Source: a virus. From it: DNA of 34,692 nt. Each line of letters opens with the position of its first letter. Position 1 is the first letter of the stretch. Below, one piece after another: positions 11,830 through 34,692 of this stretch. The notes below the pieces were generated by a model that did not search any database, was not told where the DNA came from, and saw only the letters and a list, made by a program, of their open reading frames with translations. The stretch lies in IMG/VR virus record IMGVR_UViG_3300035670_000760, positions 1 to 34,692 of that record. One strand, given 5' to 3'. The position numbers and the translations under genes are program-made.

Positions 11830-12954
11830 ATGCAGTATTCAGTATATCCAACAAGAGATGCCACTATATATGAAGGAAAACCTAATTTAAATTCAGGTTT
11901 AGATTCAATAATAGAGTTAGAAAAGATATCTAACAATGTTGCAGATTCTAATGATGTTTACTATAATTATAATTATAACTCTAGGATATTACTTCAAATA
12001 GATTCTAATGAGATAAATAAATTAATTCAGAATGGAACTATAGGAAGGTCAAGCAAGTATTATTTAAATTTATTTTCCGCACAAGCTGATAAGTTGTCCT
12101 TATCTTATTCAATATATGCATATCCTGTTAGTGAATCTTGGAATCAAGGAAAAGGATATTATAATGCTTCTCCTCAAATTAAAGACGGAGTTTCTTGGAC
12201 TTACAGGAATGGTTATTTTAATATGACAGGTAAACAATGGGCTTCCGGCTCCTTTGTTGCGGGAACTACCGGTTCATACGTAACACAAAAAGGAGGTGGT
12301 ACTTGGTACTATCAAAGTGGATACGTTGCATCGCAATCTTTTGACCAGGAAAGTCCGGATGTAAGAATGGACATTACTAACATTGTTCATAAATGGATTT
12401 CAGGTTCTATTCCCAATAATGGCCTTATCATAAAAAGAAGTGATAATGATGAGAAAAGTTGCGATGTCATGGGATCCGTAAAATTTTTCAGCAGGGAAAC
12501 TCATACTATATTCATTCCAAGATTAGACATTGTATGGAATGATGCAGACTTCTCAGGAACATCATCATTTGCTCAAGTACCAAACGAAGACTTCGTATTA
12601 CATTTCAAAAATAAAAAAGCATCTTACTACCCAACAGATAAAACAAAGTTTAGATTCTTAGTAAGAGATAGAATCCCAGTTAAAACATATTCTACATCCT
12701 CAAATTACATTTCAAGTAAAAGATTACCAACATCTTCTTATTATGCAATACAAGATGAACAAACATCTATGTACGTTGTTCCATTTGATGATAGAAATGT
12801 AATAAGCTGTGACAATAAAGGAAATTATTTCAAAGTAAATTTTAATACATTTCTTCCAAATAGATATTATAAAGTTCTAATTAAAGTGAAGATGGATGGA
12901 GGAGACATTGAAAAAACAATTGATGATTCTATATATTTTAAAGTTAGCAAATAG
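11830..12954 (+). CDS. DNRLRE-domain virion protein, 374 aa
   Basis: Residues about 5-235 follow the DNRLRE/CBM96-like pattern. A start YPTRDATIYEGKPNLNSGLD leads to the RILLQIDSNEI strand. Several W-centred segments follow (SESWNQGKG, GKQWASGSF), then DVRMDITNIVHKWISGSIPN with NNGLIIK, and finally a FFSRETHTIFIPRLDIVW strand. This is a jelly-roll often found in surface proteins and in Bacteroidota phage virions, sometimes carbohydrate-binding. The C-terminal 140 residues are beta-rich and unassigned. Position directly after gp6 places it in the baseplate or its peripheral fibres; glycan binding is only an inference. The next gene starts with GTG inside this gene's TAG stop. Confidence 0.75.
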   Translation: MQYSVYPTRDATIYEGKPNLNSGLDSIIELEKISNNVADSNDVYYNYNYNSRILLQIDSNEINKLIQNGTIGRSSKYYLNLFSAQADKLSLSYSIYAYPVSESWNQGKGYYNASPQIKDGVSWTYRNGYFNMTGKQWASGSFVAGTTGSYVTQKGGGTWYYQSGYVASQSFDQESPDVRMDITNIVHKWISGSIPNNGLIIKRSDNDEKSCDVMGSVKFFSRETHTIFIPRLDIVWNDADFSGTSSFAQVPNEDFVLHFKNKKASYYPTDKTKFRFLVRDRIPVKTYSTSSNYISSKRLPTSSYYAIQDEQTSMYVVPFDDRNVISCDNKGNYFKVNFNTFLPNRYYKVLIKVKMDGGDIEKTIDDSIYFKVSK

Positions 12955-15323
12955 TGGAAGAAAATAATAACATAAATATACATAGATTATCAGATCCAAA
13001 TAATAGAAGATCAGGCCCTAACTTATCTATTGGAGAATATACCTATTTAAATGGAGACATCTATAAAGGTCAATATCATGTGGATGAGTATGGAAAATAT
13101 ATGTCTGGAAGATTTACTACAGAAGAATCTAAAGAGTTAATAAAAATTGGGGATGCATTAGATGTAAATAATAAATTAGAAATATCTCTTCCCGTCCCAA
13201 AAAATGAAATTAATACATCTAGTGAAAAGGACGACTATGTAAATTATAAGATTGTTAGAAGATATGAAGGAAATGTAGAAAAAGTCATATTTGGAACAAT
13301 AAAAGAAAGAGTACCTGAAATAGAAGGACAAAATAAAAACAGATATTCCACCGAAGATATAAATAAAGCAAACAAGCCAAAATTAAAAGTAAATCTTAAG
13401 GGAATAAAATACGTGCCCATAAGTTATAAATTAAAAGGAACTACTTTGTCTGTAGATCCTGGATATTATTTTATTAGACCTGAAAAAGTTATTGTTTCTG
13501 ACTTCATACTTTCTAAGGTAATTGACGCAAATTTTAATTATTTCATTGGAGTTAATAATCAAGCATTAACAGATATCTCGGTATGTCTTTTGCCTAATAA
13601 CGAGACATTAGAAGTTATGATGTTTGAAAGAAATAAGACCTATAATGACGTAATATCTATTGAACGAGTAGATTTCTCCGAATTAGCTACTTATCCACTA
13701 GGAACCTTTGTCAAAATAGCTGAAGTTGGGGCAAGACCTTTAGAAGGATACACTTACTATTTTATAAACACTAATAATAACGGAAATTGTCTAGATTTAT
13801 CATCTTCTTGGACACCCGCTGTTAGGAAAAAAGTAAGAAATATTATTGATCCTATGGTTCCGATTATTAATAATATACCTTCAACAATTATTAATAATAT
13901 CCCACCTGAACCTTTTGTTATTATTGTTAGTGGATCGGAAGGAAGACCTGGAAAAGATGGTAAAGATGGATTGAATATAATTGGAGGAGGTGGAGTTGGA
14001 ATACCTGGACCTGCTGGTAAAGACGGAAAAGACGGAAAAGATGGTAAAGATGGCAAGGATGGACCTACTGGACCTATTGGACCTATTGGACCTATTGGAC
14101 CTGCCGGACCTGCGGGACCTGCGGGACAAAATGGTCAGCCCGGACAGAATGGAGCTAACGGAGTACCAGGACAAAATGGACAACCCGGAGGGTTAGGACC
14201 ACAAGGACCTGCCGGACCAACCGGAGCATCTGGTACTAATTCTTTCTGCCCAGAATGCCCCAAAGATAATACAGAAGGTACCGGAGGTGGAACAGGCACA
14301 GGTGGTACTGATACCGGAGGTGGAACAGGCACAGGTGGTACTGATACCGGAGGTGGAACAGGTGGTACTGATACCGGAGGTGGAACAGGTGGTACTGATA
14401 CCGGAGGTGGAACAGGTGGTACTGATACCGGAGGTGGAACAGGTGGTACTGATACCGGAGGTGGAACAGGTGGTACTGATACCGGAGGTGACCTAGGTGG
14501 AGGAACAGGAGGCACTAGCACAGGAGCTGGTAATAAATACTGGAGAATGATTCCTTGTAATTCAAGCACTATTCCAGGGTATATCTCCACACAACCTAAA
14601 TCTAATCAAATTTATTATAGCTCTACAAAACGTCTTTTTTATTATTGGGATGAATTAGAACCAAATTTCTACCCTACCACACTAAACATAACAATACTTA
14701 CCGATTTACTTGAAATAAAAGGAGTTACAAATTGTCCTGGTATAGGAGGAGGAACTCCTGGTGGTGGAACTCCTGGAGGTGGTGGTGGAGATACTAATAA
14801 AATAGTAATATACGAACTTGTATCTTGTACTGATGAAACCGATAAAATATATACTTCTTTAAGTATAGGTAGTATTAATCAAATCTGCACTTTATTTTTG
14901 AATAGTGGAAATAAGAGCTATCAGTATAGAGGTAATTCTGCTCTTGTAGATAGAAATCAAGCCCCTCCTTTGGTCACTGTTTCCATAGATTTAAATAATT
15001 TTAATTGCCCTACAATATTAGGTCCATCAGGAGGGGGAGGGCCTGGTGGGGGGCAAGACACTAGCTCTATAGATATAAGAGGTGGTACGCCTGGAAATAC
15101 TATAGACTTTTTGAGTTATCAAAATATTAGTAATAATTCAGGTATTGATGATACAAGAGGTAGTGGCGGTAGTGGTACAGGTGGTGGTACAGGTGGTGAT
15201 ACAGGTGGTCGTCCTATGTTGCCATTCTTCCGAACTAATGGTCGACGTGATCCAGCCGGGGGTGGTTCAAGTGGTGGTAGTGGTAATCCTCCTTACGATC
15301 CATTTTCTCGAAAGAATAATTAA
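12954..15323 (+). CDS. Collagen-like virion protein with Gly-Thr-Asp minisatellite, 789 aa
   Basis: The start is GTG 12954-12956, overlapping the upstream TAG by one base; the frame has no better ATG. Near the N-terminus, GDIYKGQYHVDEYGKYMSGR then FTTEESKEL is a motif I know from phage structural proteins (Y-G-YH-G-M-G, then S-L). Residues about 327-429 are Gly-X-Y collagen-like (GKDGKDGKDG, GPIGPIGPAGPAG). Residues about 441-526 are pure GGTDTGGGT repeats. Two Cys-flanked domains of about 65 residues follow (starting near WRMIPC and YELVSC), joined by Gly-rich linkers, and then a Gly/Ser-rich tail. The protein is probably a long trimeric fibre or decoration attached near the baseplate. Functional detail is unknown. 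Confidence 0.75.
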   Translation: MEENNNINIHRLSDPNNRRSGPNLSIGEYTYLNGDIYKGQYHVDEYGKYMSGRFTTEESKELIKIGDALDVNNKLEISLPVPKNEINTSSEKDDYVNYKIVRRYEGNVEKVIFGTIKERVPEIEGQNKNRYSTEDINKANKPKLKVNLKGIKYVPISYKLKGTTLSVDPGYYFIRPEKVIVSDFILSKVIDANFNYFIGVNNQALTDISVCLLPNNETLEVMMFERNKTYNDVISIERVDFSELATYPLGTFVKIAEVGARPLEGYTYYFINTNNNGNCLDLSSSWTPAVRKKVRNIIDPMVPIINNIPSTIINNIPPEPFVIIVSGSEGRPGKDGKDGLNIIGGGGVGIPGPAGKDGKDGKDGKDGKDGPTGPIGPIGPIGPAGPAGPAGQNGQPGQNGANGVPGQNGQPGGLGPQGPAGPTGASGTNSFCPECPKDNTEGTGGGTGTGGTDTGGGTGTGGTDTGGGTGGTDTGGGTGGTDTGGGTGGTDTGGGTGGTDTGGGTGGTDTGGDLGGGTGGTSTGAGNKYWRMIPCNSSTIPGYISTQPKSNQIYYSSTKRLFYYWDELEPNFYPTTLNITILTDLLEIKGVTNCPGIGGGTPGGGTPGGGGGDTNKIVIYELVSCTDETDKIYTSLSIGSINQICTLFLNSGNKSYQYRGNSALVDRNQAPPLVTVSIDLNNFNCPTILGPSGGGGPGGGQDTSSIDIRGGTPGNTIDFLSYQNISNNSGIDDTRGSGGSGTGGGTGGDTGGRPMLPFFRTNGRRDPAGGGSSGGSGNPPYDPFSRKNN
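14280..14490 (+). repeat. 27-bp minisatellite (two 33-bp plus five 27-bp units)
   Basis: Two 33-base units and then five 27-base units encode GGTDTGGGT repeats; the 27-base units appear identical at base level. Such uniformity implies recent expansion by slippage or recombination, and length variation between strains is likely. The units keep the frame, so copy number changes only the linker length. Confidence 0.93.
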
Positions 15324-20658: not shown

Positions 20659-21756
20659 ATGGCAAATACAGATATATTTACTACATTCAATACGGCCGAT
20701 ATTGTACCTAACCAAGAGGAAGTAATTACTAGAGCTTTATTCTCAAATAATGATGGTAACTTAACAACCTTTTTTACATCTTCCGGACAAACGGCAACAC
20801 AAAAGAGGTATTATTATGAAATTTTTAATAGCTCTTCAAACGCTCTAGGCTCCGAAGCTCAATTTAGTATTGCTTATGGTCAATACAACGGCTCCGGATC
20901 CGCTGATGAAGGTGGTCAAATAAACGATACACCAACTAGAGCTATCTATGGACAGTACAAGCAACTATGTTTAGATCCCGGAGAAAGAAAGTTTATAGTT
21001 AATGGAAAATCTACGGATAGTATTTATGTTATTAATGTAAACAGAGCTAGATTACGAGAATCTTTAGATGTAGGTACTTTAGAAATAAATTTAGCTTATC
21101 TATCAGGTTCTCAATTTATTGCCGGGCCTGGTAGTAACTCTACGCATACCGGATCAAATGTAAGATTAGCCGGAAATAATAAATATATGAGGTTAATTGA
21201 TGACTCCAAGTCCAATCCTGCCTCTGTAACCACCGCCGGAAAGGTATATAATTTAGTATCTGGATCTTTAGAATCTGGTGTATATAATCCTAGCAATCCT
21301 CAAAAATTTGGTTTAGTATATCCAAATTTAGGTATTGTTGTAATGGATGGTACTGCACTTGATAAATCGGCTTCTTTTGGCACAGTATCTGGCTCTGAAG
21401 TTGCAGGAGATAACGCCTTCAAATTATATAGGTCTATGTCTGGTTCCGCAAAGTTCCAAGATTTATCAGGTGATTTCTTAGGTTTTCAAGCTAGAAGTTC
21501 TGAAAAAGTAAAATCTACTCATTATTTTGTAAGAGTTAGAAATGACCGATACAACTTTAGCAATAATCCAACATTTATAACAGGTTCAGAGGGGGATTTT
21601 TCACAACCTACATTTATAAATGACCCTAAAGTATACATTACAACAGTAGGCATGTATTCAAATTCTTATGAATTACTTGCGGTGGCTAAATTATCAAAAC
21701 CTTTACAAAAAAGTTTTACTAGAGAAGCTCTTTTGAAGGTAAAATTGGATTTTTAA
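20659..21756 (+). CDS. Virion protein, paralogue A of a three-gene family, 365 aa
   Basis: Residues about 18-365 align by eye with residues about 746-1141 of the next gene. Shared stretches include LFSNNDGNLTTFFT, FSIAYGQ, TPTRAIYGQY, DSIYVIN, LSGSQF-AG and STHTGSNVRLAGNN. The pair also shares the ending VYITTVGMYSN-ELLAVAKLSKP. The last 50 residues resemble the C-terminus of 25218-26873 as well. The protein is beta-rich with many Gly/Ser and no signal peptide, as expected of a tail or fibre component. The start ATG follows an A-rich leader (AATAAAATAAAA). Function beyond virion structure is unknown; the family looks like a locally duplicated tail-surface module. Confidence 0.72.
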   Translation: MANTDIFTTFNTADIVPNQEEVITRALFSNNDGNLTTFFTSSGQTATQKRYYYEIFNSSSNALGSEAQFSIAYGQYNGSGSADEGGQINDTPTRAIYGQYKQLCLDPGERKFIVNGKSTDSIYVINVNRARLRESLDVGTLEINLAYLSGSQFIAGPGSNSTHTGSNVRLAGNNKYMRLIDDSKSNPASVTTAGKVYNLVSGSLESGVYNPSNPQKFGLVYPNLGIVVMDGTALDKSASFGTVSGSEVAGDNAFKLYRSMSGSAKFQDLSGDFLGFQARSSEKVKSTHYFVRVRNDRYNFSNNPTFITGSEGDFSQPTFINDPKVYITTVGMYSNSYELLAVAKLSKPLQKSFTREALLKVKLDF

Positions 21757-21790: not shown

Positions 21791-24700
21791 ATGAATTTTG
21801 AAGTATATTACTACTTATCTGAACAAGATAAACGAATCTATATAGACTCTCTCCCTTTTTCTGCGAGAGACCAATATTTAAGAGATTATGACTCCTGGTA
21901 TTATAGTCCGAATAATCCTATTACTAACCGGGAGACTAATATAAGTAAAGTAATAAATGTATCAGCGTGTTCAAGCGGTACTTTACAAACAAATTCTTAC
22001 ACAGTAACAGCTACGCCATCAAATATAGATAGAGAAATAAACAGTATTTTATCTAATTTTGAAACGGAGAAGTCTCTTAATCCTAATTATTCTTATACCT
22101 ACGGAATAGATTCTCCCGCTCCTTTTTTGAATTGCCAGACAGTAAGTCCCGGAGGAGGTTCAGGTGGCGGTACATTTACTTTATATTCTGTCTATTGTCG
22201 AAATGGATTTGCAATTACCTCCGAAAAAACATTCCCGGTAGGTACAGATAGGAATCAAGCTACTCTTACTATTTATGAAGAATTAAGCAATCTTTTAGGG
22301 GTAGACCCTGGATCTATTACTACTAGCGACGTATTTCTTCCTACAAGTACAAAGAACTGCGCCACTTCTTCACCACCTCCGTCTCCCCCGTCTCCTCCGC
22401 CTAGTCCTATTACTAGAACTTTATACGCCGCATATTGCATACAAAGACTTACTGCCGGTTTATCATCAACTCAAGATATTCCGACCTTTCCTTCCTCTTC
22501 TTCTAAAGTATTAGATTTAACAAATGTATCTGCACAACAGCTTCAGCCGTTTTTATTTAATCAATCTCAATTATTTCAACAGGAACTTAGACAATCCGGA
22601 GCTACTCAGATTAGAGTACAATTTGATTCACCTCCTCCAAGTGAAAGTTGTTTACCTGTAGATAGAGAATTGACAGTAGACAATAATTACTCTACTACTC
22701 TGCATATAGCTTATTGCGTAAACGGTACAGTAACAAGACAGTCAACAATTATAGTCCAATCTAATCTTCAATTATTTTTAGAGAATAGAGAAAATTTAAT
22801 AAGCCAATATTATTCTCAGTATAAGACTTTATTAGACAGAGAACTTTCCTCATTAGGTTATACAAATTTAACGATAGCTTTTAATGACCCTCCTAATATA
22901 TCTTGTTTATCCTCCCCACCACCTACACCTACTACTAGAACTTTATATGCCGCTTATTGCGTACAAAGACTCACTCCTGGTTTATCATCAACTCAAGATA
23001 TTCCAACTTTTCCTTCTAGTTCTTCTAAAATAATAGATATAACAAACACGTCTGCGCAACAGATTCAGCCTTTTTTAGTTAAGCAATCTCAATTATTTCA
23101 AGATGAACTTAGACAATCCGGAGCCACTCAAATTCGATTGCAATTTGATTCACCCCCTCCAAATGAAAATTGTTTACCCGTAGATAGAGAAACAAGTGTA
23201 ACAAATTTTTACTCCGCTACTCTTTATGTGGCATACTGTAGAAATGGTGTAGTTTCAAGAGAATCCAAAAGAGTAATCCAGTCTAATCTTCAACAGTTTG
23301 TAGATAACAGAGAAAATTTAATAGCTCAATATTATAAAGAATATAAAGAAGCATTAGAAGCTAGATTTGCTATTACTAACTTAACTATAGATTTTGACAG
23401 CCCTCCAAATATTTTTTGCGGCGGAAGCGTAACTCTATATGCTGCTTATTGTATTGGCGAAAAAGCGGAAACAAAAACAAAAGTGGTATCATTAAGTTCG
23501 GTAACTTCCGAACAAATGGTACAACCTTTTATTTACAAGAATGTAGAACTTTTTAAAATAGAATTAGAAAGATTAGGTGCTAAGAAAATAGAGATGAGCT
23601 CTCTAAGCATGCCTGATTTGCCTAAGTGTGATATCTCAGGTCCATCCAGAATACTATATGCATCTTTTTGTTTAAGTGGACAAAATGGAAGTTCCTCAAA
23701 GGAAGTAAGCATAACTAATATAACTAACGATAAGTTAAAGGTTTTCTTAGAATCACAAGCTAAGACCTATGAAGATGCGATAAGAGCATCCGGAGCTGAG
23801 TCGGTAGTTACTAATTATGATACTCCACCCATCCCTCTTTTTTGTGTAGATATAGGAGGTGGAACAACAGGAGGGCCTGATGGACCCGGACCTGACGGAC
23901 CCGGACCAACGCCTCCTCCCGCAACTACTACTCTTAGACCTACAACTACTACTACTACTACTACCTTAAGAACTCCTAACTCTTATTGGCTGAAAAAAAT
24001 AAATCCGACAGATAATAGAAGATATGTATTTGATGTAACAGAAGGTCTTTTCTCAAATAATATAAGAAATTTAACTACTTTTTTTACGGGAAGTACTTCT
24101 GAAAATTACAGCAGGTATTATACACATGTTTATGATGAAAATCCTAAAACATCCTTAACATCTTCTATTCAATTTAGCATCGCTTATGGACATAGTGGTG
24201 GATCTGGCTCTTTAGATGAAGGAAACAAAATAAATATAACACCTACAAGAGCTATATATTCTCAATACAGGAACTTAGTTTTAGGTAAATCCAATATAAA
24301 ATTTAATCTCACAGGAAGAGAAACTGATAGTATTTATGTCATAAATTATCAATCAAAAAGATTAAAAGATAGATTAGACGCTGGAGTTATAGAACTCAAT
24401 ATTGCTCATTTATCAGGTTCTCAATTCTTGGCAGGAGGTGGTTCAATATCAACTCATACAGGTTCAAATGTAAAATTAGCAGGAAATAATAGAGTTTTAA
24501 GATTAATTGACGATTCAAAAATAAGTACTTCCCCAGATTACACAGACGTAGGATACTCTTACAATATAGTTTCCGGAACTTTAGAAACCGGAGTTTATAA
24601 TCAAACTGCTCCACACTATTATGGTAAATTAATTCCATCTTTAGGCGTAGTTATTTTAGACGGTAATAAATTAGACCTTTCGGCTTCTTTTGCAACATCT

Positions 24701-25216
24701 AAGGCATCTGAAATAGAGGGATATAATGCTATTAAATTATATAAATCCTTTTCAGGATCTGCCTTAGTACAAGATAATAGTGGAGACTATCTAGGTATGA
24801 AAGCTAGAAGAGTAATAAGAGAGTACAACGATTATTATTTTATAAGAGTGCTAAATAATGAGTATAATTTTACAAATAATCTTAGTAGAATAAAATCAGA
24901 AGTTCCTGATTTCATGGTATATAAAGATGCAGATCCGGGAAATCCTCATTGGAAGACAAATCTAGGACTCCCTTTGATACCTTTGCCAGTAGATCCAACA
25001 TCACTTCAAGGACTTGAGGACATCAGAAGAAGGACTTTACTAAAGTTAGAAAATGGAGAAATAACGGAACCTTTTGCAAATAATTCTCAAGTGTATATTA
25101 CGACAGTAGGTCTTTATAATGCGCAAAGAGAACTTATTGCAGTAGGCAAACTACCTAAACCTATACTAAAAAACTTTACAGAAGAATCTATATTTACTGT
25201 AAAACTTAAGTATTAA
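21791..25216 (+). CDS. Large repeat-containing virion protein, paralogue B, 1141 aa
   Basis: The protein is modular. After a short N-terminal region (1-50) it carries a series of about seven or eight domains of roughly 65-100 residues. Each opens with a strand ending in Cys (LYAAYC, LHIAYC, LYVAYC, LYASFC) and closes with a second Cys (ESC, NISC, ENC, IFC, PKC, LFC). Two adjacent domains are duplicated as a 522-base block (22412 and 22934). A Pro/Gly and Thr-rich linker (about 690-735, with TTTTTTTT) leads into a C-terminal domain (about 746-1141). That domain is paralogous to the whole of the preceding protein, with an extra loop of about 40 residues near 1040-1090. It is probably an extended fibre whose end domain shares its binding or capping role with its neighbours. 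Confidence 0.75.
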   Translation: MNFEVYYYLSEQDKRIYIDSLPFSARDQYLRDYDSWYYSPNNPITNRETNISKVINVSACSSGTLQTNSYTVTATPSNIDREINSILSNFETEKSLNPNYSYTYGIDSPAPFLNCQTVSPGGGSGGGTFTLYSVYCRNGFAITSEKTFPVGTDRNQATLTIYEELSNLLGVDPGSITTSDVFLPTSTKNCATSSPPPSPPSPPPSPITRTLYAAYCIQRLTAGLSSTQDIPTFPSSSSKVLDLTNVSAQQLQPFLFNQSQLFQQELRQSGATQIRVQFDSPPPSESCLPVDRELTVDNNYSTTLHIAYCVNGTVTRQSTIIVQSNLQLFLENRENLISQYYSQYKTLLDRELSSLGYTNLTIAFNDPPNISCLSSPPPTPTTRTLYAAYCVQRLTPGLSSTQDIPTFPSSSSKIIDITNTSAQQIQPFLVKQSQLFQDELRQSGATQIRLQFDSPPPNENCLPVDRETSVTNFYSATLYVAYCRNGVVSRESKRVIQSNLQQFVDNRENLIAQYYKEYKEALEARFAITNLTIDFDSPPNIFCGGSVTLYAAYCIGEKAETKTKVVSLSSVTSEQMVQPFIYKNVELFKIELERLGAKKIEMSSLSMPDLPKCDISGPSRILYASFCLSGQNGSSSKEVSITNITNDKLKVFLESQAKTYEDAIRASGAESVVTNYDTPPIPLFCVDIGGGTTGGPDGPGPDGPGPTPPPATTTLRPTTTTTTTTLRTPNSYWLKKINPTDNRRYVFDVTEGLFSNNIRNLTTFFTGSTSENYSRYYTHVYDENPKTSLTSSIQFSIAYGHSGGSGSLDEGNKINITPTRAIYSQYRNLVLGKSNIKFNLTGRETDSIYVINYQSKRLKDRLDAGVIELNIAHLSGSQFLAGGGSISTHTGSNVKLAGNNRVLRLIDDSKISTSPDYTDVGYSYNIVSGTLETGVYNQTAPHYYGKLIPSLGVVILDGNKLDLSASFATSKASEIEGYNAIKLYKSFSGSALVQDNSGDYLGMKARRVIREYNDYYFIRVLNNEYNFTNNLSRIKSEVPDFMVYKDADPGNPHWKTNLGLPLIPLPVDPTSLQGLEDIRRRTLLKLENGEITEPFANNSQVYITTVGLYNAQRELIAVGKLPKPILKNFTEESIFTVKLKY
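22412..23417 (+). repeat. 522-bp direct duplication of a two-domain block
   Basis: The block starting at 22412 is repeated from 22934. Long stretches are nearly identical (for example around TATCATCAACTCAAGATATT), while other parts differ by scattered substitutions. The period of 522 bases equals 174 codons, so the frame is kept. It encodes two consecutive Cys-bounded domains, which indicates an older tandem duplication. Confidence 0.9.
23920..23966 (+). repeat. ACT-rich trinucleotide tract (Thr linker)
   Basis: ACT triplets predominate here and encode TTTLRPTTTTTTTTLRT, a low-complexity linker between the Cys-bounded domains and the C-terminal domain. The triplet run is prone to copy change without frame loss. 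Confidence 0.85.
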
Positions 25217-25217
25217 T

Positions 25218-26873
25218 ATGAGTACATTCGCGCCAATAAGAGGTGAGGATTTTAATATTGCGCCGTTTGAAGTAAACAAGGAGTATTATATTCTCACCGG
25301 AAGTTATGCTAAACAAGGTTATAAAGTACAGCAAGGACTTTATTATAATGGACCTATTCACATAAGTTCGTCAAAAGACGTAACATATCCAAAAAATTCA
25401 GATGGGTCTTATAAGTATATTGTCTATAGTTCACTCAATCATCTATATTATAAAAGAGGATTCGCATGGGCTAATTCTTTAGAGGGGTGGGACAGAAATA
25501 GAACTACTAAAAATTTGTTTTTAACCGCTAGTCTACTTTCTATACCTTCTTTAAATTATGGAGACAAGATTAAAGAAAGTACATTATATTTAAAAGGATT
25601 GAACAACAATGTACTTTTAGTAGATGATGGGCACAATAACTTATACGATAGGAATATAAATACAAGCTCTTTCCTTAATCCGGATAATTTATGTGGATAT
25701 TGGGGATTCCAGGACGCACATAAAGCATACCGATATGGAAGAGGCGGGAAAAAAACATTATTTATAAGATATGAAAGTGAAGTTATTGAGCCACAAGAAA
25801 AATCAAAATCTTATCAAGTAGCTTATCCAAGTGGAATTACTATAAACGGTGTTAGAACAGGATTAGCTGCGGAATTTTATGGCGATGGCTATATCCACAC
25901 TAAAAATTTTGACGCTGTTAGTTTTGAGTCAGCAGATAATTTTACTATAAGTTTTTGGCTAAAAGCACCGATATCTCAGAGTGTGTTAACTAGCAATAAA
26001 AATACAGTAATTGACAAGAAGTCCATATTGTATAGGGAAGAATTCGGTAGATTAAAAAGAGTAAACAAAGGTAATTTATTAGTAACCGATGTTTTTTCAT
26101 CATCTTCTTTTAAATATTACCCAGTAGATTATTATCCTTATGAGTTTTCGGTACACAATCACACTCATCCACAACCAGGAAAATTGTCGTTTAGTCGATC
26201 AGATGGTTTTTCTACATTACAATTAACATCATCTAATTCCATTTTAGATGATAATTTCCATCATGTTTGCTTAGTAAAAACAGGTTCTAATATTCAGCTA
26301 TATGTCAATGGAACATTAAATGCATCAAGAGCAGATGTTAAAGATGAAACTGTCAATGTAAGTGATATCATGATAGGGGCATCTTCTTTTGACGGAAGAA
26401 ATGGATATACAGGACTTATAGATGAATTAAGGTTTTATAATAAAGCAGCTACTCCTCAAAATGTTTCTAGTCTATATACTACATCTTCTATTGCATGTTA
26501 CCAAACAAATAGAGTAGGAAATGTATTTTACAGGACGGGTAATTTAGTAATCACAAGTTTAGATAGACAATATCATGAAATTTTATCTAACAATTGGTTG
26601 CTTTATTATAAAAATAGCTTAACTTTGTATGAGTTTGAAATGTTGATTAGAATTAAAAGAGGTGATTTTAATCTTACATTGAACCCTTCTTCTACTAAGA
26701 CTGTTAAGAGTACAGAGTATTTAGATGATTTCACAGGTTCTTTATCTCCTTACATAACTACTATTGGCTTGTACAATAAACAAAACGAACTAATTGCAGT
26801 AGGTAAAATGGGACAAGCGATAAAGAAAAGAGATGATGTGGATTTAAATGTTATTGTAAAATTTGATTATTGA
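25218..26873 (+). CDS. LamG-domain virion protein, paralogue C, 551 aa
   Basis: Residues about 207-430 form a LamG/concanavalin-like domain: AAEFYGDGYIHTKNFDAVSF, SADNFTISFWLKAP, DDNFHHVCLVKTGSNIQLYVNG, VSDIMIGASSFDGRNGYTGLIDELRFYNKA. This is the usual order of the laminin-G fold and often means glycan binding. The first 200 residues contain FLTASLLSIPS and SFLNPDNLCGYWGFQD segments seen in other phage surface proteins. The last 45 residues (ITTIGLYNKQNELIAVGKMGQAI) match the C-termini of the two preceding genes, marking it as the third member of that family with a different main domain. Its ATG comes one base after the previous stop. It is the last virion gene before the DNA-metabolism cluster. 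Confidence 0.8.
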   Translation: MSTFAPIRGEDFNIAPFEVNKEYYILTGSYAKQGYKVQQGLYYNGPIHISSSKDVTYPKNSDGSYKYIVYSSLNHLYYKRGFAWANSLEGWDRNRTTKNLFLTASLLSIPSLNYGDKIKESTLYLKGLNNNVLLVDDGHNNLYDRNINTSSFLNPDNLCGYWGFQDAHKAYRYGRGGKKTLFIRYESEVIEPQEKSKSYQVAYPSGITINGVRTGLAAEFYGDGYIHTKNFDAVSFESADNFTISFWLKAPISQSVLTSNKNTVIDKKSILYREEFGRLKRVNKGNLLVTDVFSSSSFKYYPVDYYPYEFSVHNHTHPQPGKLSFSRSDGFSTLQLTSSNSILDDNFHHVCLVKTGSNIQLYVNGTLNASRADVKDETVNVSDIMIGASSFDGRNGYTGLIDELRFYNKAATPQNVSSLYTTSSIACYQTNRVGNVFYRTGNLVITSLDRQYHEILSNNWLLYYKNSLTLYEFEMLIRIKRGDFNLTLNPSSTKTVKSTEYLDDFTGSLSPYITTIGLYNKQNELIAVGKMGQAIKKRDDVDLNVIVKFDY

Positions 26874-27306: not shown

Positions 27307-28215
27307 ATGCGTTTTAGATTATTATCGGTTTTAGAGGAAGTGCTAGGTCCTTCGGATTCAGCGGGTAAATCAGACATTGTTTTCCATTGTCCCTTCTGCA
27401 ATCACCACAAAAAGAAGTTAAGTGTAAATTTAACTAATCAGAAGTATCATTGTTGGTTTTGTGAAGCCAAGGGTAGGAGTATAAGTAATCTTTTCTACAA
27501 ATGTGGTGCGACAAAGAATCAAATTGACCAACTTAGAAATGTTTTAGAGTATTATCAAATGAAAGACGATACTCAAATAGACATTCCTACTGCCTTATTG
27601 AAATTGCCCGATGAATATGTATCATTAGACAAGGTTCCTAACAAAGCTGTATTAAGTTTCTTAAGGAGATTTAAGCCTTCTTTTACAAGTCAGGACATAG
27701 TAAGACATAAGGTTGGATATTGCCTAACAGGTAAGTACGCAGGCAGGATTATACTACCATCTTATGACAAGAACGGCACACTTAATTTTTTTGAAGGCAG
27801 AGATTTTACAGGTCTTTCTCCTTACAAATATTTAGGCGCTGCTGTCAAGATAAATGATATTATAGTCAATGAGTTTTTCTTAGATTTTAAATTCCCTATA
27901 GTTATTGTAGAGGGTTTTTTCGACAGCGTATCAGTAAGAAGAAATGTGACTTATCTAACAGGCAGTATTATTTCAGAGAAGTTAAAACATAGACTACTCA
28001 TGGAAGAAACTCCTTTAGTATATGTGGCTATTGACCCGGATAAAAAGAAACAAGCTATAAAGTATTGTTTAGAATTAGGAGCCATGGGTATTCCTACCAA
28101 GCTAGTTGACTTAGGTACAAAAGATCCTAGCGATTTAGGGTACGATGATACATGGGATGCTATAGAAGGAGCAGTTGAAATTAATGAGTATTCAGCAATA
28201 ACAAATTTATTATGA
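27307..28215 (+). CDS. 61: DNA primase, gp61-like (zinc finger plus Toprim), 302 aa
   Basis: An N-terminal zinc-binding domain has CPFC (28-31) and CWFC (49-52), the CHC2-type ribbon of phage primases. The Toprim core follows: RIILPSYDKNG (147-157), IVIVEGFFDS (198-207, with the catalytic Glu 202), AIDPDKKK (241-248, with the two metal-binding Asp), and a KDPSDLG segment (272-278). The domain order and the length of about 300 residues fit T4 gp61-type primases, which make RNA primers for lagging-strand synthesis together with the helicase. No helicase domain is attached. The start follows the resolvase stop by six bases, and the stop TGA overlaps the next ATG (ATGA), so the cluster is one transcript. 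Confidence 0.92.
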   Translation: MRFRLLSVLEEVLGPSDSAGKSDIVFHCPFCNHHKKKLSVNLTNQKYHCWFCEAKGRSISNLFYKCGATKNQIDQLRNVLEYYQMKDDTQIDIPTALLKLPDEYVSLDKVPNKAVLSFLRRFKPSFTSQDIVRHKVGYCLTGKYAGRIILPSYDKNGTLNFFEGRDFTGLSPYKYLGAAVKINDIIVNEFFLDFKFPIVIVEGFFDSVSVRRNVTYLTGSIISEKLKHRLLMEETPLVYVAIDPDKKKQAIKYCLELGAMGIPTKLVDLGTKDPSDLGYDDTWDAIEGAVEINEYSAITNLL

Positions 28216-31200
28216 TTCTAATAAAGAACACAGGAAGAAAAGTTGATAAGATTTTTCACATTTCAGATATTCATGTTTACAATTATCAAAGACATGAAGA
28301 ATATATAGAAGTGTTTGAGAAATTGTATAAAATCATTGAGGAGAGAATGACACCCAATTCCATTATATTTTTGGGCGGGGATATCGTACATTCAAAAACA
28401 AACATGTCCCCAGAATTATTCTCAGTAGTATCTAATCTATTATCTACATTATGTAACATGCTTCCTACCATAGTAATATTAGGAAACCATGACTTAAATC
28501 TAAATAATAAAACAAGATTAGATGCATTAACTCCCATTATAAACAGTTTAAATTTACCTACATTACATTTCTTAAATGAAACAAATGTATATCGATATGA
28601 ACAAATAGGATTTAGTTTATTACATGTTAAAGATAAAATTGAAAATGTAATCCCCGCAAAATCTTTTGATGCAGAAACAAAGATATTAATGTATCATGGA
28701 CCGGTAAAGAACTCGGCAACAGCATACGGATATCTATTAGAAGGAAATTACTTAGATGTATTAGATCATGCAGATTATGATTACATCTTATTGGGAGACA
28801 TTCATAAACATCAATATCTCAATTTAGAAAAGACAGCAGCTTATCCATCTAGTCTAATACAACAGAACTTTGGAGAAGATTTAACACATGGAATCATCGA
28901 ATGGGATTTAAATAATAATACAAGTGAGTTCATTAAGATAGCATCTTCAAATGGTTACTATACATTTAAATTGAAAAATGATAAAGTAGCTGAAAAAATA
29001 CCTGGAGATTTACCCTATAATCTTAATGTAGCTATCACCGCCGAAAATTGCACTCAAGAATTTATAGACTCTTTTTGTTTAGCCTTAGAAAAAAAATATA
29101 ATGTTCTCCGTATAAAAAAACCAAAAGTAACTAAATTTATTATAGACAATGGCAAAGGAGAAGTATCACTAGACAAAGAGAACATAATAAGAGACTTTGA
29201 ATGGAGACACTCAATGCTAGAAAGATATGTTCAAAACGAGTTAAAACAGGAGTATCAAGCAGATAAATTTCTAGACATCCATAAAACAGCTTCTTTAGAA
29301 TTAGATGAACCTTCTGAATTTATAGGCGTAACATGGAAGCCTATACGATTTGAATTTTCTAATATGTTTTCCTACGGAGAGGGTAATGTATTTAATTTAG
29401 GAGAGCTAGGAGGACTGGTTGGATTATTCTCACCAAATGCTTCCGGAAAATCTACTTTATTAGACGCTATGACTTACTGTATTTTTGACAAATGTAGCAA
29501 GACAAGTAGTGGAGCCGAAGTAATGAATACATCCTCTGATTTCTTTTCTTGTAAATTAGAGTTATCGGTTGCGGGTGAATCTTATTTTATCGAACGCAAT
29601 GGTAAGAAGGGAAAAGATGGAAAAGTAAAGGTTGTTGTTAATTTCTATAAGGAGGATGGAACTTCTTTAAACGGCGAGCAAAGATATGAAACAAATGACA
29701 GTATTAGAAAGTATCTAGGAAGTTATGAGAATTTCATGCTTATAACAATGTATGACCAACATAATAAATCTGACTTCATTGATAAAACTCAAAAAGACAA
29801 AAAGGATTTATTGTACAAGTATTTTGATATAGACATCTTTGAGAAATTAAATGATACATCTAAAGAGCATCTCAAGCAATTAAAATATGAAATTGAGAAT
29901 CACCAAAAACAAAAATACAACGAATCTGTAACGGAGTATGAAAATAGCATAATAGATATAAAGTCCAAGCTAGTACAAGTAGAAACTAGCTTAGAGTTAA
30001 ATAAAAAGAGCTCTGATGTTCTGTTCATACAAATAGAAAACAAAAGAAAAGAACTTGTACCATACCCTAAGCAATCTATAAACTATGCCACAAAAATAGA
30101 CGAGGAGAGCAGGAATGAGACAACCCTTAGTTCATCCTTAGAAGATAAGAGAAAGTTGTTTGTAGAGGCTAGAAATGCCCTTAAAACGCATCTATCTGAA
30201 TTAGAATCTATGGGAGAAGTAGTTGACGTGTCTTCTGATTTAGTTACGATAAGAAAAACATTATCTGATTTTGACAGAGACATTGCGGTAACTGAATCTG
30301 AAATAAAATCTAGTGGTAAATTAATAGACCACTTACAAGGTTACGAGCATGACCCTAACTGTGTGTATTGTGTAAAAAACAACAAATACGCATTAGATGG
30401 AGAAAAAGCTAAAAAAGAATATCCGGAGTTACTAAAAAAATTAGATCAACTCAAGCAAAGTAAAAATGAATTAGGAAAAAGTATAAAGAATTTAGAAGCA
30501 GCGGACTCTCTATATAAAAAATACAAAGATAAGAAAAATGGAACAGATAGGCTTAAATCTAATTTAGACAATATAGAAAGTCAAGCAAATATTATTAAGG
30601 AGAAAATACAAATCTCAAAAAACTTGATTTTAGATTACTCCGAAAAACTAAAAGAGCAAGAATCCTATAAAGACATAGAGCAGAAAAACGCTGAAATAGA
30701 AAGTGAAATAGCTAAATTACTAGATGAGAAAAAATCAATAGATGACGCTATATACCACTTAGCCTATACTATTGGAGGTCATAAATCTACTATAGAAAAC
30801 AACGAGTCAAAAATCAAAGACATCAAAATAAAAATTAAAAAGTTTAAGGATGATACTTTAACGTATAATAATTATTTTGTTTTTGAGAAGGCAACTAGAA
30901 GAGATGGAATTCCTCTTTTCATTATTAAAAATTATTTGCCTGTCTTAGAAAATGTTGTCAATGATGCCTTAAAAAATGTAGCAGCATTCAATGTTCAATT
31001 TGAGTTATCTGATAAAACATTGGAAGTATTCATATCTTATGTAAATGGACCTAAATGGCCTCTATCTTTAGCATCTGGAATGGAAAGATTTATATCATCT
31101 TTAGCCATAAGAGCAGCATTAAATCATGTTACTGTACTTCCAAAACCTGACTTCTTTTTTATCGATGAGGGATTTGGTGTACTAGATTCTGATAATATTG

Positions 31201-31343
31201 CTAATGTAGGATTATTCTTAGAAGAGCTTACATCATATTTTAGATTTATATTATGCATATCACATTTAGATGTAGTTAAAGATTATGTAGCAAAGGAACT
31301 ATTTATTGTAAAGGAAAACGGACATTCTCAATTAATATCATAA
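28212..31343 (+). CDS. Fused SbcD-SbcC (gp47-gp46) recombination nuclease-ATPase, 1043 aa
   Basis: One chain carries both subunits that T4 and bacteria usually encode separately. Residues 1-240 are the Mre11/SbcD-type metallophosphatase: DIH (19-21), GGD (55-57), GNHD (91-94), HGP (162-164), GDIHKH (195-200). From about 340 the Rad50/SbcC-type ATPase begins, with Walker A FSPNASGKST (about 406-415). A long coiled coil with a CVYC zinc hook follows (717-720). Then come the second coil, the signature SLASGMERF (about 950-958) and Walker B FFFIDEGFG (about 979-987) with the adjoining D-loop. All key residues look intact. The complex trims DNA ends to load recombinase for recombination-dependent replication. 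The start overlaps the primase stop by four bases. Confidence 0.95.
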   Translation: MILIKNTGRKVDKIFHISDIHVYNYQRHEEYIEVFEKLYKIIEERMTPNSIIFLGGDIVHSKTNMSPELFSVVSNLLSTLCNMLPTIVILGNHDLNLNNKTRLDALTPIINSLNLPTLHFLNETNVYRYEQIGFSLLHVKDKIENVIPAKSFDAETKILMYHGPVKNSATAYGYLLEGNYLDVLDHADYDYILLGDIHKHQYLNLEKTAAYPSSLIQQNFGEDLTHGIIEWDLNNNTSEFIKIASSNGYYTFKLKNDKVAEKIPGDLPYNLNVAITAENCTQEFIDSFCLALEKKYNVLRIKKPKVTKFIIDNGKGEVSLDKENIIRDFEWRHSMLERYVQNELKQEYQADKFLDIHKTASLELDEPSEFIGVTWKPIRFEFSNMFSYGEGNVFNLGELGGLVGLFSPNASGKSTLLDAMTYCIFDKCSKTSSGAEVMNTSSDFFSCKLELSVAGESYFIERNGKKGKDGKVKVVVNFYKEDGTSLNGEQRYETNDSIRKYLGSYENFMLITMYDQHNKSDFIDKTQKDKKDLLYKYFDIDIFEKLNDTSKEHLKQLKYEIENHQKQKYNESVTEYENSIIDIKSKLVQVETSLELNKKSSDVLFIQIENKRKELVPYPKQSINYATKIDEESRNETTLSSSLEDKRKLFVEARNALKTHLSELESMGEVVDVSSDLVTIRKTLSDFDRDIAVTESEIKSSGKLIDHLQGYEHDPNCVYCVKNNKYALDGEKAKKEYPELLKKLDQLKQSKNELGKSIKNLEAADSLYKKYKDKKNGTDRLKSNLDNIESQANIIKEKIQISKNLILDYSEKLKEQESYKDIEQKNAEIESEIAKLLDEKKSIDDAIYHLAYTIGGHKSTIENNESKIKDIKIKIKKFKDDTLTYNNYFVFEKATRRDGIPLFIIKNYLPVLENVVNDALKNVAAFNVQFELSDKTLEVFISYVNGPKWPLSLASGMERFISSLAIRAALNHVTVLPKPDFFFIDEGFGVLDSDNIANVGLFLEELTSYFRFILCISHLDVVKDYVAKELFIVKENGHSQLIS

Positions 31344-31346
31344 TAA

Positions 31347-34300
31347 ATGGCTTTTGGATTAACATCACCATCATCTGAAGAAAATAAAAGATTAACTAGT
31401 TCTGGAATAAAGAGCTATATAAACGAATTTACTCTTTTTGATGGAGATGCTTTAAGTTCTAATTATTTTGGTCTATCTTTACCCGCTGAATTTTTAAAAG
31501 GAGCTAATGAAATAGGAATTAACCCCACGCAAAATTTAGTTAAAGGGACTCAAGTTTTTGTTGAAGTATATGATTCGGAGGGTAACTTAATTCCGCATGA
31601 AATAAAGAATGTTGCAAATGCTAATGGTTCTGCTATTGTAACTGTTACCATCGGAGATAATGTACCGATAGGAAATTGCGAAATTTACATAGCAGGTACA
31701 GCTAATTTTGACGTACTAAGAAATAGAAGATTAACAAATTTATCATCACCTAATATTATATGGGTAGGTAAATTGTTGTCTAATACTAAGAAAAAAACAA
31801 TAGGAGATATAAAATATACAATACCTCCTAAAGTAGATTTAACTCCTGAAACAAGAGCTTTTCAAAACTTTTCCGGAAGTAGAGCTACAGGAAGTTGTCA
31901 TGCAGTTAGTTTGTCTTATGTGTCATCCACACCACCGTCTCAATACTCTCCTAATTACTCTTCTAATACACCCGAATTGTTTGATGGGGTACCTATTGAG
32001 TCTACGCCCAATATAAACTCATCTGGAAGTTTAGCTAATTCTGGTAACTTTTCTATAACGACTGACGCAAATAACCTTAGCACAATAGTAGCTAATACAG
32101 GCGCTCCGTTTAAAAAAGAAATGGAAAAGGGCACAATATCTTTAACCCCTGATATTTCCAAGTATTTACCCGGGGATTTACCCTCCGGATATTCGCCAAC
32201 AGTTCCCTCTTACACTGCAACTATTGTAGAGGTAATTAGTAGCACTCAAATAAAAGTAGATAAGCAATTTTTTTACAGAGAATCTTACGTAAATAAAAGA
32301 AAAGAATCTTCTGAAATCTACATAACTAGATTTGATTCATCTAATATATGTATAGACTATTTCAAAAGCCCGGACACAAGCGATGGACAAAAGAAAACAG
32401 GATATGCAAAAATATGTGTTAAGAATGCTAAACCTGTATCAGGAGATGTCGATAGAGTAAAAGTTTCCGCAAAAGCTGCTGGAGGAGTTGGAAGCCCTGT
32501 TAGTCTAGGAGAATTCAAAATACCAAAAACAAGTAAATTAACAGATAATTCTTCTTATGACTTTTCAGCTAACGGAGGCGTAGAGAGCAAAAAAGTAGGA
32601 AATATAAAAGATAGCTCTGATATATCTAGCTATTTTGATATTAATAAATTTAGAAAACAGGATTCTTCTTATGAAAACATAGGAGCAAGTGGGATAACTA
32701 CTTCCGCAAATAGTGGAAACATAGTAAACGCTCTTGATGTACAACACAATAAACAAGAAAACGAAGTAGTAAATATAACAGTAAAAGATTCTTTTTTATC
32801 TAAATCAGTTCCCGACACTGAATACACTGTGCAAATATCCGCATTTTCTGAAAAAGATGCTAACGGGAAAACTCCACAACTTGACATATACATTCAAGGT
32901 CCTGACGTAGAAAAGTCACCATTATCTATAAATCAAGTAAACGCATCATCCCCCTCTAGCACATCTGAAAAGAATTCATTTGGAACTTTTTTAGGATCTT
33001 TAATAGGAGGTAATAATAAGTCTGAAATAAAAAAGACTTTTACATTTAAAGCCACATCTGAAGATAATATAAAACCTAATTTTATTATAAATGCTGGGCA
33101 ATGGAATGTATCTGACATTGATATATTTCCAAGTGCATCAGATGGTGGAACTCCTAATGAATTTTGCATTGATATTCCATTAGATAATTTACCAATTGCT
33201 AAGATAGACACAGAGTATATTTTTGAAATAGAGTTTTTAAATGCTAATGGAGTTTCGGCTAATTTTTCAACAACAGTTTATGGGGTAAAAGTTAATGTTG
33301 ACGTTACTATTGATGAACAACTTTTAATTAATACCTTCAATAGCAGTCCCGCATTCCAATCATTAGTAGCAAGTTCTTCAACAAAAGGAGATAAAGGAGA
33401 CATAGGACCAAAAGGAAATTCAGGATTAAAGGGCAATAGTGGATCTAAAGGTGAAATTGGAGACACTGTTTTTACGGGGTCTTTGGACAGCTGCAACATA
33501 ATAACAGTTAATCACGGAACGGGTATACCATATCCGGTATTTACTATATATTCTAACGATGGCAAATCAGTAATACCTGAAAACTATACAGCAATAGACG
33601 AGAATACTATTGAAATAACTTTCGGAGAATGTTTCAAAGGTTTTGTATCTATAGCAGGAGGAGGAGAGAAAGGACCTAAAGGAGCTCAAGGAGACCTAGG
33701 CTCTGCTGGTTTAAAAGGTAATCAAGGACCACAAGGCAACCAAGGACCTCAAGGTAATCAAGGCCTTACAGGAAATCCGAGTTCTGTATCGGGTCCAAAA
33801 GGTAATCAAGGATTCCAAGGTAATCAAGGACCACAGGGTAATCAAGGTACAGTAGGTACACAGGGTTTTCAGGGAAGACAAGGACCGCAGGGCAATCAAG
33901 GATCACAGGGAGTACAAGGTACTACCGGCGCTCAGGGTAATCAAGGACCTACCGGATCACAAGGTAATCAAGGACCTCAAGGTAATCAAGGACCACAAGG
34001 TAATCAAGGTCTTACAGGCAATCCAAGTTCTGTGGTGGGACCACAAGGCAATCAAGGACCACAAGGTAATCAAGGACCTACCGGTTTACAGGGTATTAGC
34101 GGACCTCAAGGCAATCAAGGATCACAGGGAGTACAAGGTACTACCGGCGCTCAGGGCAATCAAGGACCACAGGGAATACAAGGTTTTCAAGGCAACCAAG
34201 GACCACAAGGAATACAAGGTACAGTAGGTACACAGGGTTTTCAGGGAAGACAAGGTCCACAGGGTAATCAAGGACCACAAGGTAATCAAGGACTACAAGG

Positions 34301-34692
34301 GATACAAGGTACAGTAGGTACACAGGGTTTTCAGGGAAGACAAGGCCCGCAGGGAAACCAAGGACCACAAGGTAATCAGGGACCACAAGGTAATCAAGGT
34401 CTTACAGGTAGTCCAAGTTCTGTAGCGGGCCCACAAGGCAACCAAGGACCACAAGGTAATCAAGGTCTTACGGGTAATCCAAGTTCCGTAGCGGGACCGC
34501 AAGGCAATCAAGGACCTCAAGGTAATCAAGGACCTACCGGTTTACAGGGTATTAGCGGACCACAGGGCAACCAAGGACCACAGGGGATACAAGGTACAGT
34601 AGGTACACAGGGTTTTCAGGGAAGACAAGGCCCGCAGGGCAACCAAGGACCACAAGGTCTTACGGGTAATCCAAGTTCTGTAGCGGGCCCAC
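31347..34692 (+). CDS. Collagen-like tail fibre protein, 3' end cut by the window edge
   Basis: The frame starts at ATG 31347 (four bases after the SbcCD stop) and stays open to the last base, 1115 codons, so the C-terminus is missing. The first 650 residues include several beta-rich domains (for example TQVFVEVYDSEGN, GDNVPIGNCEIYIAG) with a plain, Ser/Asn-rich character. A short collagen-like segment lies at 33380-33465. It is followed by a 60-residue globular insert (ITVNHGTGIPYPVFTIYSND, then ENYTAIDENTIEITF) that resembles a repeat domain of phage fibres. From about 33658 to the end is a long GNQGPQ-type array. A trimeric tail fibre is the best reading. The last 127 bases are shared, inverted, with the fibre gene at the left edge. 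Confidence 0.82.
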   Translation, partial: MAFGLTSPSSEENKRLTSSGIKSYINEFTLFDGDALSSNYFGLSLPAEFLKGANEIGINPTQNLVKGTQVFVEVYDSEGNLIPHEIKNVANANGSAIVTVTIGDNVPIGNCEIYIAGTANFDVLRNRRLTNLSSPNIIWVGKLLSNTKKKTIGDIKYTIPPKVDLTPETRAFQNFSGSRATGSCHAVSLSYVSSTPPSQYSPNYSSNTPELFDGVPIESTPNINSSGSLANSGNFSITTDANNLSTIVANTGAPFKKEMEKGTISLTPDISKYLPGDLPSGYSPTVPSYTATIVEVISSTQIKVDKQFFYRESYVNKRKESSEIYITRFDSSNICIDYFKSPDTSDGQKKTGYAKICVKNAKPVSGDVDRVKVSAKAAGGVGSPVSLGEFKIPKTSKLTDNSSYDFSANGGVESKKVGNIKDSSDISSYFDINKFRKQDSSYENIGASGITTSANSGNIVNALDVQHNKQENEVVNITVKDSFLSKSVPDTEYTVQISAFSEKDANGKTPQLDIYIQGPDVEKSPLSINQVNASSPSSTSEKNSFGTFLGSLIGGNNKSEIKKTFTFKATSEDNIKPNFIINAGQWNVSDIDIFPSASDGGTPNEFCIDIPLDNLPIAKIDTEYIFEIEFLNANGVSANFSTTVYGVKVNVDVTIDEQLLINTFNSSPAFQSLVASSSTKGDKGDIGPKGNSGLKGNSGSKGEIGDTVFTGSLDSCNIITVNHGTGIPYPVFTIYSNDGKSVIPENYTAIDENTIEITFGECFKGFVSIAGGGEKGPKGAQGDLGSAGLKGNQGPQGNQGPQGNQGLTGNPSSVSGPKGNQGFQGNQGPQGNQGTVGTQGFQGRQGPQGNQGSQGVQGTTGAQGNQGPTGSQGNQGPQGNQGPQGNQGLTGNPSSVVGPQGNQGPQGNQGPTGLQGISGPQGNQGSQGVQGTTGAQGNQGPQGIQGFQGNQGPQGIQGTVGTQGFQGRQGPQGNQGPQGNQGLQGIQGTVGTQGFQGRQGPQGNQGPQGNQGPQGNQGLTGSPSSVAGPQGNQGPQGNQGLTGNPSSVAGPQGNQGPQGNQGPTGLQGISGPQGNQGPQGIQGTVGTQGFQGRQGPQGNQGPQGLTGNPSSVAGP
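33658..34692 (+). repeat. Modular collagen-like repeat array
   Basis: The array is built from reused cassettes in varying order. They are GPQGNQGPQGNQG, GTVGTQGFQGRQGPQG, GLTGNPSSV(A/S/V)GP, GVQGTTGAQG and GLQGISGP. The same cassettes appear in the minus-strand fibre gene at 1-396. Near-identical copies recur every few tens to hundreds of bases, so short-read assembly through it is unreliable, and the copy number shown may not be real. Confidence 0.9.
34566..34692. repeat. Inverted terminal repeat, right copy (127 bp)
   Basis: This copy is the exact reverse complement of bases 1-127. It sits inside the collagen-like array of the plus-strand fibre gene, in the same codon phase as the left copy, and ends exactly at the window edge. 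Confidence 0.97.

Follow-up and report, generated by a model that had tools for sequence, protein, structure and literature searches.

Paired cysteines in a phage gene

Phage proteins are synthesised in a reducing cytoplasm, and a long, regular series of cysteine pairs in one of them raises the question of what these pairs do and what the protein carrying them is for. The protein in question is the product of gene B (1141 aa; positions 21791–25216, + strand), found in a linear IMG/VR virus record of 34,692 bp, the whole of which was analysed and is referred to here as the window. It consists of a conserved N-terminus, eight two-cysteine domains, a linker and a C-terminal anchor. We consider it fairly probable that gene B encodes an adhesin array that is stapled by disulfides, shuffled in blocks and located close to the baseplate in a phage with a contractile tail.

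The 16 cysteines of the gene B product all fall into eight pairs (residues 60/115, 136/190, 216/287, 309/372, 390/461, 483/543, 554/613 and 627/685), with 54–71 residues within pairs and 11–26 between them, and the last 456 residues contain none. When 16 cysteines were placed at random within residues 60–685, the two gap classes were separated in 25 of 200,000 placements, and gaps of 50–75 residues combined with spacers of at most 30 were reproduced in 0 of 200,000. The remaining 19 listed ORFs of the window average only 0.66% cysteine (61 in 9243 aa, as against 16 in 1141 for gene B); thus, cysteine is concentrated in gene B.

Along the gene, with all parts on the + strand, an N-terminal segment of about 49 aa with a YYYLSEQDK motif (21791–21937) is 82% identical between the window and relative L011 and 52–63% identical in several other pairs. 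It is followed by domains d1 (21938–22141, type T04, starting with SAC), d2 (22166–22366, T02), d3 (22406–22657, T14), d4 (22685–22912, T15), d5 (22928–23179, T14, a copy of d3), d6 (23207–23425, T15, a copy of d4), d7 (23420–23635, T19) and d8 (23639–23851, T20). The linkers between them are short, with Pro, Gly, Ser or Thr abundant in many. A Gly/Pro/Thr-rich linker and lead-in (23852–24019) leads to the C-terminal anchor domain (24020–25213; 398 residues, no Cys), which shows 82–85% identity across five orthologues. The initial annotation had counted about seven domains opening with a strand that ends in YC or FC. Seven do so (d2–d8, 22166–23851), but the total is eight, d1 having been overlooked.

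Relatives of gene B were recovered solely through the anchor. An alignment of close anchors (A4) led to 21 loci, 19 of them orthologues at 69–82% identity; the other two (L110 and L111, 26–27% identity) are distant, yielded no ORF that met the filter and were left out of the comparison. The gene is complete in 17 of the 19 orthologue contigs, which together with the window gives 18 complete genes; the truncated L098 and L103 are excluded from this count. Cysteines are present in 16 of the 18, always in even number (8, 12 or 16). Since the two remaining complete orthologues lack any Cys domain, the array is not essential there, which we count against our explanation. Cysteine-bearing orthologues are those of the window, L010–L013, L015 and L096–L107. 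In all 16 complete Cys-bearing genes, the window included, pairs alternate with linkers, the gaps being 50–102 residues within pairs and 11–64 between pairs (64 is reached in L013). The number of framed domains thus varies among relatives, a comparison that the initial annotation had proposed; all complete Cys-bearing genes have an even number of them (4, 6 or 8), possibly by chance, given few independent lineages.

A family of small two-cysteine domains

From 15 distinct proteins (L014, which yields none, among them) we took 76 Cys-framed domains, 65 of them distinct: 58 are small, with 50–71 residues between the cysteines, and seven belong to a second type with 97–102. Pairs were assigned by order along the protein, and the small domains then align with each Cys in a single column. 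Both cysteines are present in 58/58 distinct small domains and no other column is invariant, a result that bears out the proposed one pair per domain and its conservation in relatives. Before the first Cys there is an L/V/I strand residue in 58/58 domains and Y/F in 51/58. Clustering at 50% identity produced 25 small-domain types, many of them about 20–30% identical to each other, in addition to the second domain type (T01). In leave-one-type-out HMM searches, 25 of 25 small-domain types outscored all 2000 shuffles in which the cysteines were held fixed; therefore, the small domains form one family and not just a Cys-driven alignment.

AlphaFold2, given d6 together with the 58 sequences, returned a β-β-α-β fold with a pLDDT of 91.9 and a pTM of 0.75 (strands 2–12, 15–25 and 56–62; helices 28–33 and 35–53), from an input alignment assembled out of Cys-framed pieces, which we count against our explanation. 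In this model Cys 11 ends strand 1 and Cys 71 lies in the tail past strand 3. Hydrophobic alternation suggests that the strand-1 cysteine faces away from the helix side. A Foldseek search with the d6 model matched nothing in PDB or BFVD at E≤0.001. The best VIA hit was a designed protein (Z 5.3, rmsd 3.3, 58 aligned), with PurS at Z 4.7 (rmsd 2.9, 54 aligned); PurS, ribosomal proteins, T4 Dmd and others at VIA Z 3–5 were taken to reflect a common small fold.

The initial annotation could assign the array to no known family, and our profile, structure and sequence searches led to the same result. Profile searches against PHROGs, Pfam, NCBIfam and PDB assigned the array to no family, and the best match of the small domain to solved structures had an E-value of 0.96; at the thresholds used, the domain is missing from all four resources. 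Several apparent matches were discarded: those of L013 to phrog_15511, phrog_38031, InlK and ClfB lie at its Pro-Thr linker or straddle it, the one in L010 lies on a Gly-Pro-Thr stretch, and TIGR03769 in L011 and L107 is weak, below the cut-off and located in the second domain type. Pfam matches to Ig, BACON or PKD were found in 0/58 small domains, and PKD in 1/11 second-type domains, at an E-value of 0.15 that falls short of the cut-off. For the small domain we likewise set aside an all-β sandwich of the Ig-like, PKD or BACON kind, d6 being predicted to adopt β-β-α-β instead.

Searches for the array itself were similarly empty. Among 50,697 phage records, tblastn detected no homologue with the window array at E≤10; the arrays of L011 and of L112 gene A, searched at E≤1, likewise had none. 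In IMG/VR the window array as query found 0 relatives, and d6–d8 gave one short match of about 31 residues (L090). No array homologue appeared at E≤1e-4 when 295 genomes from the same class as the Flavobacteriaceae MAG G012 were searched, and none was found in four records including Mel-JY01 and immuto; these nulls show nothing by themselves, as the sole positive control was on virus records. Query P0001 did not match any genome contig. A literature search covering titles and abstract openings (bioRxiv and most subscription papers lie outside it) found no description of this small two-Cys domain.

Intradomain disulfides as the likely use of the pairs

The initial annotation left the choice between a disulfide and a metal site. 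The former is favoured: the Cys pair alone is invariant and conserved His is lacking, which agrees with a disulfide but not with a metal site inside the domain. Across alignment columns holding at least 29 residues, His occurs once in the 58 small domains, and acidic residues never make up more than half of a column except in one that is partly gapped (23/41). Metal binding, by two cysteines with other ligands or by four cysteines from two domains, is thus extremely unlikely in our estimate. Although the sharing of a site by two domains would need just such even pair totals (8, 6, 4) as complete Cys-bearing gene B orthologues have, the pairs are separated by linkers of 11–64 residues, and in a related array, that of L112 gene A, the framed pairs number 11.

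How the cysteines are paired is best judged from the second domain type. These domains of about 100 aa with the same Cys framing, present in relatives of gene B, are an amendment to the initial annotation. They have either both cysteines (7 distinct) or neither (6 distinct); the two are kept or lost together. The Cys-less form occurs in L010, L015, L096, L100, L104 and L105 (L103 repeats L105). Its remaining sequence stays recognisable, and the neighbouring small domain retains its pair. Since the second type loses both cysteines while neighbours keep theirs, intradomain bonds fit. A chain of loops, in which the last Cys of one domain is bonded to the first of the next, could be accommodated by the short window spacers of 11–26 residues, but the Cys at either end of every array would then lack a partner, the chain would have to span up to 64 residues in L013, and the neighbours of Cys-less second-type domains would hardly keep both cysteines; we regard it as very unlikely.

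Each small domain is therefore probably held by its own Cys pair, and this disulfide is more likely than the function that we propose for the array as a whole. The cysteine at the end of strand 1 would bond with that at the C-terminal end, stapling the domain's tail onto strand 1. As the sole invariant residues are a Cys pair in a protein made in a reducing cytoplasm, maturation by oxidation outside the cell is indicated, and the disulfides would probably arise after lysis. No thioredoxin-family gene was found in seven records, which are fragments or of unknown completeness, so that this negative is not firm; we count it against our explanation.

Disulfides in a contractile tail have a precedent. 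In Agrobacterium phage Milano they are reported to occur in sheath, baseplate and short tail fibre, and cysteine makes up 1.4% of its proteins versus 0.9% in T4 (PMC10811340). The gene B phage would resemble Milano in being contractile-tailed and in having disulfides in baseplate or fibre proteins, including, as in the Milano short tail fibre, bonds within one protein (PMC10811340). In contrast, the Milano bonds form a network through sheath, tube and baseplate (PMC10811340), whereas the gene B pairs sit in repeated small domains; and Milano proteins in general have 1.4% Cys (PMC10811340), whereas the other 19 ORFs of the window average 0.66%. The same source suggests another use of such bonds. 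In Milano some tail disulfides have to be reduced for contraction to take place (PMC10811340), and by analogy the gene B pairs, oxidised in the free virion, might be reduced at the host surface, so that the array loosens and signals contact. We think this very unlikely. The Milano bond reported as broken on contraction joins moving sheath parts (PMC10811340), whereas the gene B pairs look intradomain; moreover, orthologues without any Cys exist, and the second domain type stays recognisable after losing its pair.

Block exchange and duplication beside a constant anchor

The conservation of gene B is uneven. In nine relatives the array is 24–38% identical to that of the window and the anchor 83–86%. 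The upstream gene, a stand-alone anchor paralogue (20659–21756, + strand; 54% identical to the anchor), is 88–98% identical to its window counterpart across ten relatives. Comparison of relatives with each other reveals mosaics. L104 shares 99% identity with L096 over d1–d2, 34% over d3–d6 and 96% over the anchor; with L105 the corresponding values are 29%, 95% and 100%. Likewise, along gene B L107 is 81%, 22% and 93% identical to L010, and 29%, 86% and 96% identical to L012. Plainly, blocks of domains have been exchanged between phages beside a conserved anchor. With anchor and neighbours constant and domains differing, gene B amounts to a clean natural experiment in block exchange.

Domains have also been duplicated in place. 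The 522-bp tandem duplication reported in the initial annotation is real: its copies on the + strand, 22391–22912 (d3+d4) and 22913–23434 (d5+d6), are identical at 398 of 513 aligned bases (77.6%) with 18 gap columns, and their alignment score of 535 compares with a maximum of 21 among 200 shuffles. Two domains were thus copied together; d4 and d6 have diverged more, to 56% protein identity. Adjacent copies are not confined to the window, where the T14-T15 pair stands twice: T03 is doubled in L012 and T01 in L011, and there are further cases. Tandem copying, which had been put forward as the way the series grows, is one of two routes, but the main change is exchange of whole blocks. As to the source of the blocks, a profile search of a 142,581-bp record (G001), which may be incomplete, matched just the six domains of its gene B, and thus no store of spare domains was seen there. 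No RVT_1 domain indicative of a diversity-generating retroelement was found in eight records, although these are fragments or of unknown completeness and the result is not firm.

Anchor and gene neighbourhood

Upstream of gene B are a gp25-like gene (PF04965, 9.6e-10) and a gp6-like wedge gene, and downstream is a LamG-domain gene; these neighbours place it among the baseplate and fibre genes of a phage with a contractile tail. The anchor has relatives in an uncultured 484-kb phage, in Microcystis phage Mel-JY01, Rhodothermus phage RM378 and Flavobacterium phages immuto, and in three MAG contigs. They occur in at least 590 of at least 600 matched IMG/VR stretches, of which 80 were kept. In Mel-JY01, immuto and RM378 the homologous C-terminal anchor is 22–33% identical to that of gene B, and in the first two it is similarly placed among baseplate/fibre genes. 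Mel-JY01 also has the anchor fused to other N-terminal parts. The two-Cys domains are absent from all three at the thresholds used. From this context we infer that the gene B product is on the virion, and our guess, from the isolate relatives, is that the host belongs to Bacteroidota.

The anchor alignment (A7) has 73 rows, made up of 71 of 77 references and two window sequences. Among these rows, four are LamG-type paralogues with 19–21% identity and little in common beyond the C-terminus, which may weaken the model. The latter is mediocre (pLDDT 74.7), which we count against our explanation. Structure searches with it gave no convincing match, the top of the Foldseek list including 42-residue pieces of neck proteins from phages Bas63 and Sf14. 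The tail-collar fibre N-terminal family PF12571 is absent from the 21 families matched by any of the 73 anchor sequences. Against it, the C-terminal portion of the LamG protein next to gene B scores 12.5 bits, below the cut-off of 23, and neither gene B nor the anchor paralogue has a match in the equivalent portion.

Two further features of this region were observed. The consecutive genes at 20659–21756, 21791–25216 and 25218–26873 end in a common motif, YITTVGLYN...AVGKL.KP, with 45–50% identity over about 45–55 residues, which is perhaps a common docking element. In Mel-JY01 (L006:11076–13940), the part preceding the anchor is different and the whole protein has 21 Cys; possibly, that part is another Cys-rich module on the same type of anchor.

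A probable modular adhesin

Hypervariable and swapped N-terminal modules on a conserved anchor, as found in gene B, characterise modular receptor-binding adhesins of phages. Because the variable, exchanged blocks sit on a constant base in the baseplate region, we favour a reading in which the array contacts the receptor. The conserved C-terminal anchor would hold the protein to the particle, the string of β-β-α-β domains with short linkers preceding it would meet the host surface, and block exchange and duplication, with anchor and neighbours nearly constant, would change the grip of the phage. Alternatively, the array could be a stiff, disulfide-stapled spacer that sets reach, with receptor binding performed elsewhere, by the LamG protein or collagen fibres. 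The variation in domain number (4, 6 or 8 Cys pairs), the stalk-like linkers and repeats and the LamG-domain protein encoded next door are all in keeping with a spacer. A stalk, however, need not diversify, whereas here 25 types, many of them only distantly similar, have been swapped in blocks beside an anchor that is 83–86% identical. A spacer role is thus unlikely.

If the adhesin reading is true, the array is an interchangeable gripping arm for different hosts, and given a cultured host it can be tested directly whether host range follows the make-up of the array. Variable combinations of small domains are also a feature of the Ig-like, BACON and PKD adhesins of Bacteroidota phages, which mediate adhesion (PMC13370021). 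Those domains are Ig-like (PMC13370021), whereas the small domains of gene B have no Ig, BACON or PKD match. Of published ideas these adhesins and the Milano disulfides come closest, and by our tests the small domain fits neither. Modular phage adhesins are thus already known; what appears to be new, judging by the sequence and structure searches, is the unnamed two-Cys domain that would build one.

The same kind of domain in a second gene

Gene A of the window (12954–15323, + strand) encodes a collagen-like repeat, a CPEC motif and then Cys-bounded domains. It has nine cysteines, the odd one lying in the last domain; this breaks strict pairing, and we count it against our explanation. CPxC, kept in 23 of the 28 gene-A ORFs found (two of the other five are cut off and three are of the array type), together with a collagen-like repeat is reminiscent of the cystine knots by which collagen trimers are stapled. 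In the lineage of L112, L113 and L154 (the third contig with this architecture), gene A has 11 Cys-bounded domains and no collagen repeat (L112:12013–15846). The Cys-less gene B orthologues, L014 and L109, come from records in which gene A has 11 Cys-framed domains. The small-domain HMM scores two L112 gene-A domains at 24.6 and 19.0 bits, versus 16.7 for the best of 10,977 scored shuffles; a third domain, at 14.0 bits, is exceeded by four shuffles. By these scores, domains of one kind sit in gene B in some lineages and in gene A in another. It is possible, though we hold this more tentatively than the proposal for gene B, that an undescribed two-Cys β-β-α-β family of oxidation-locked domains makes up a combinatorial adhesin whose array has moved between genes A and B or been loaded onto them independently, the array being the evolving unit.

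Two other ORFs of the window deserve mention. A 1043-aa ORF (28212–31343) combines Metallophos with an AAA_23/SMC-like ATPase, an apparent SbcD-SbcC-like fusion. The last ORF (31347–34691), which runs out of the window, has six collagen-repeat stretches (PF01391, 8.2e-50).
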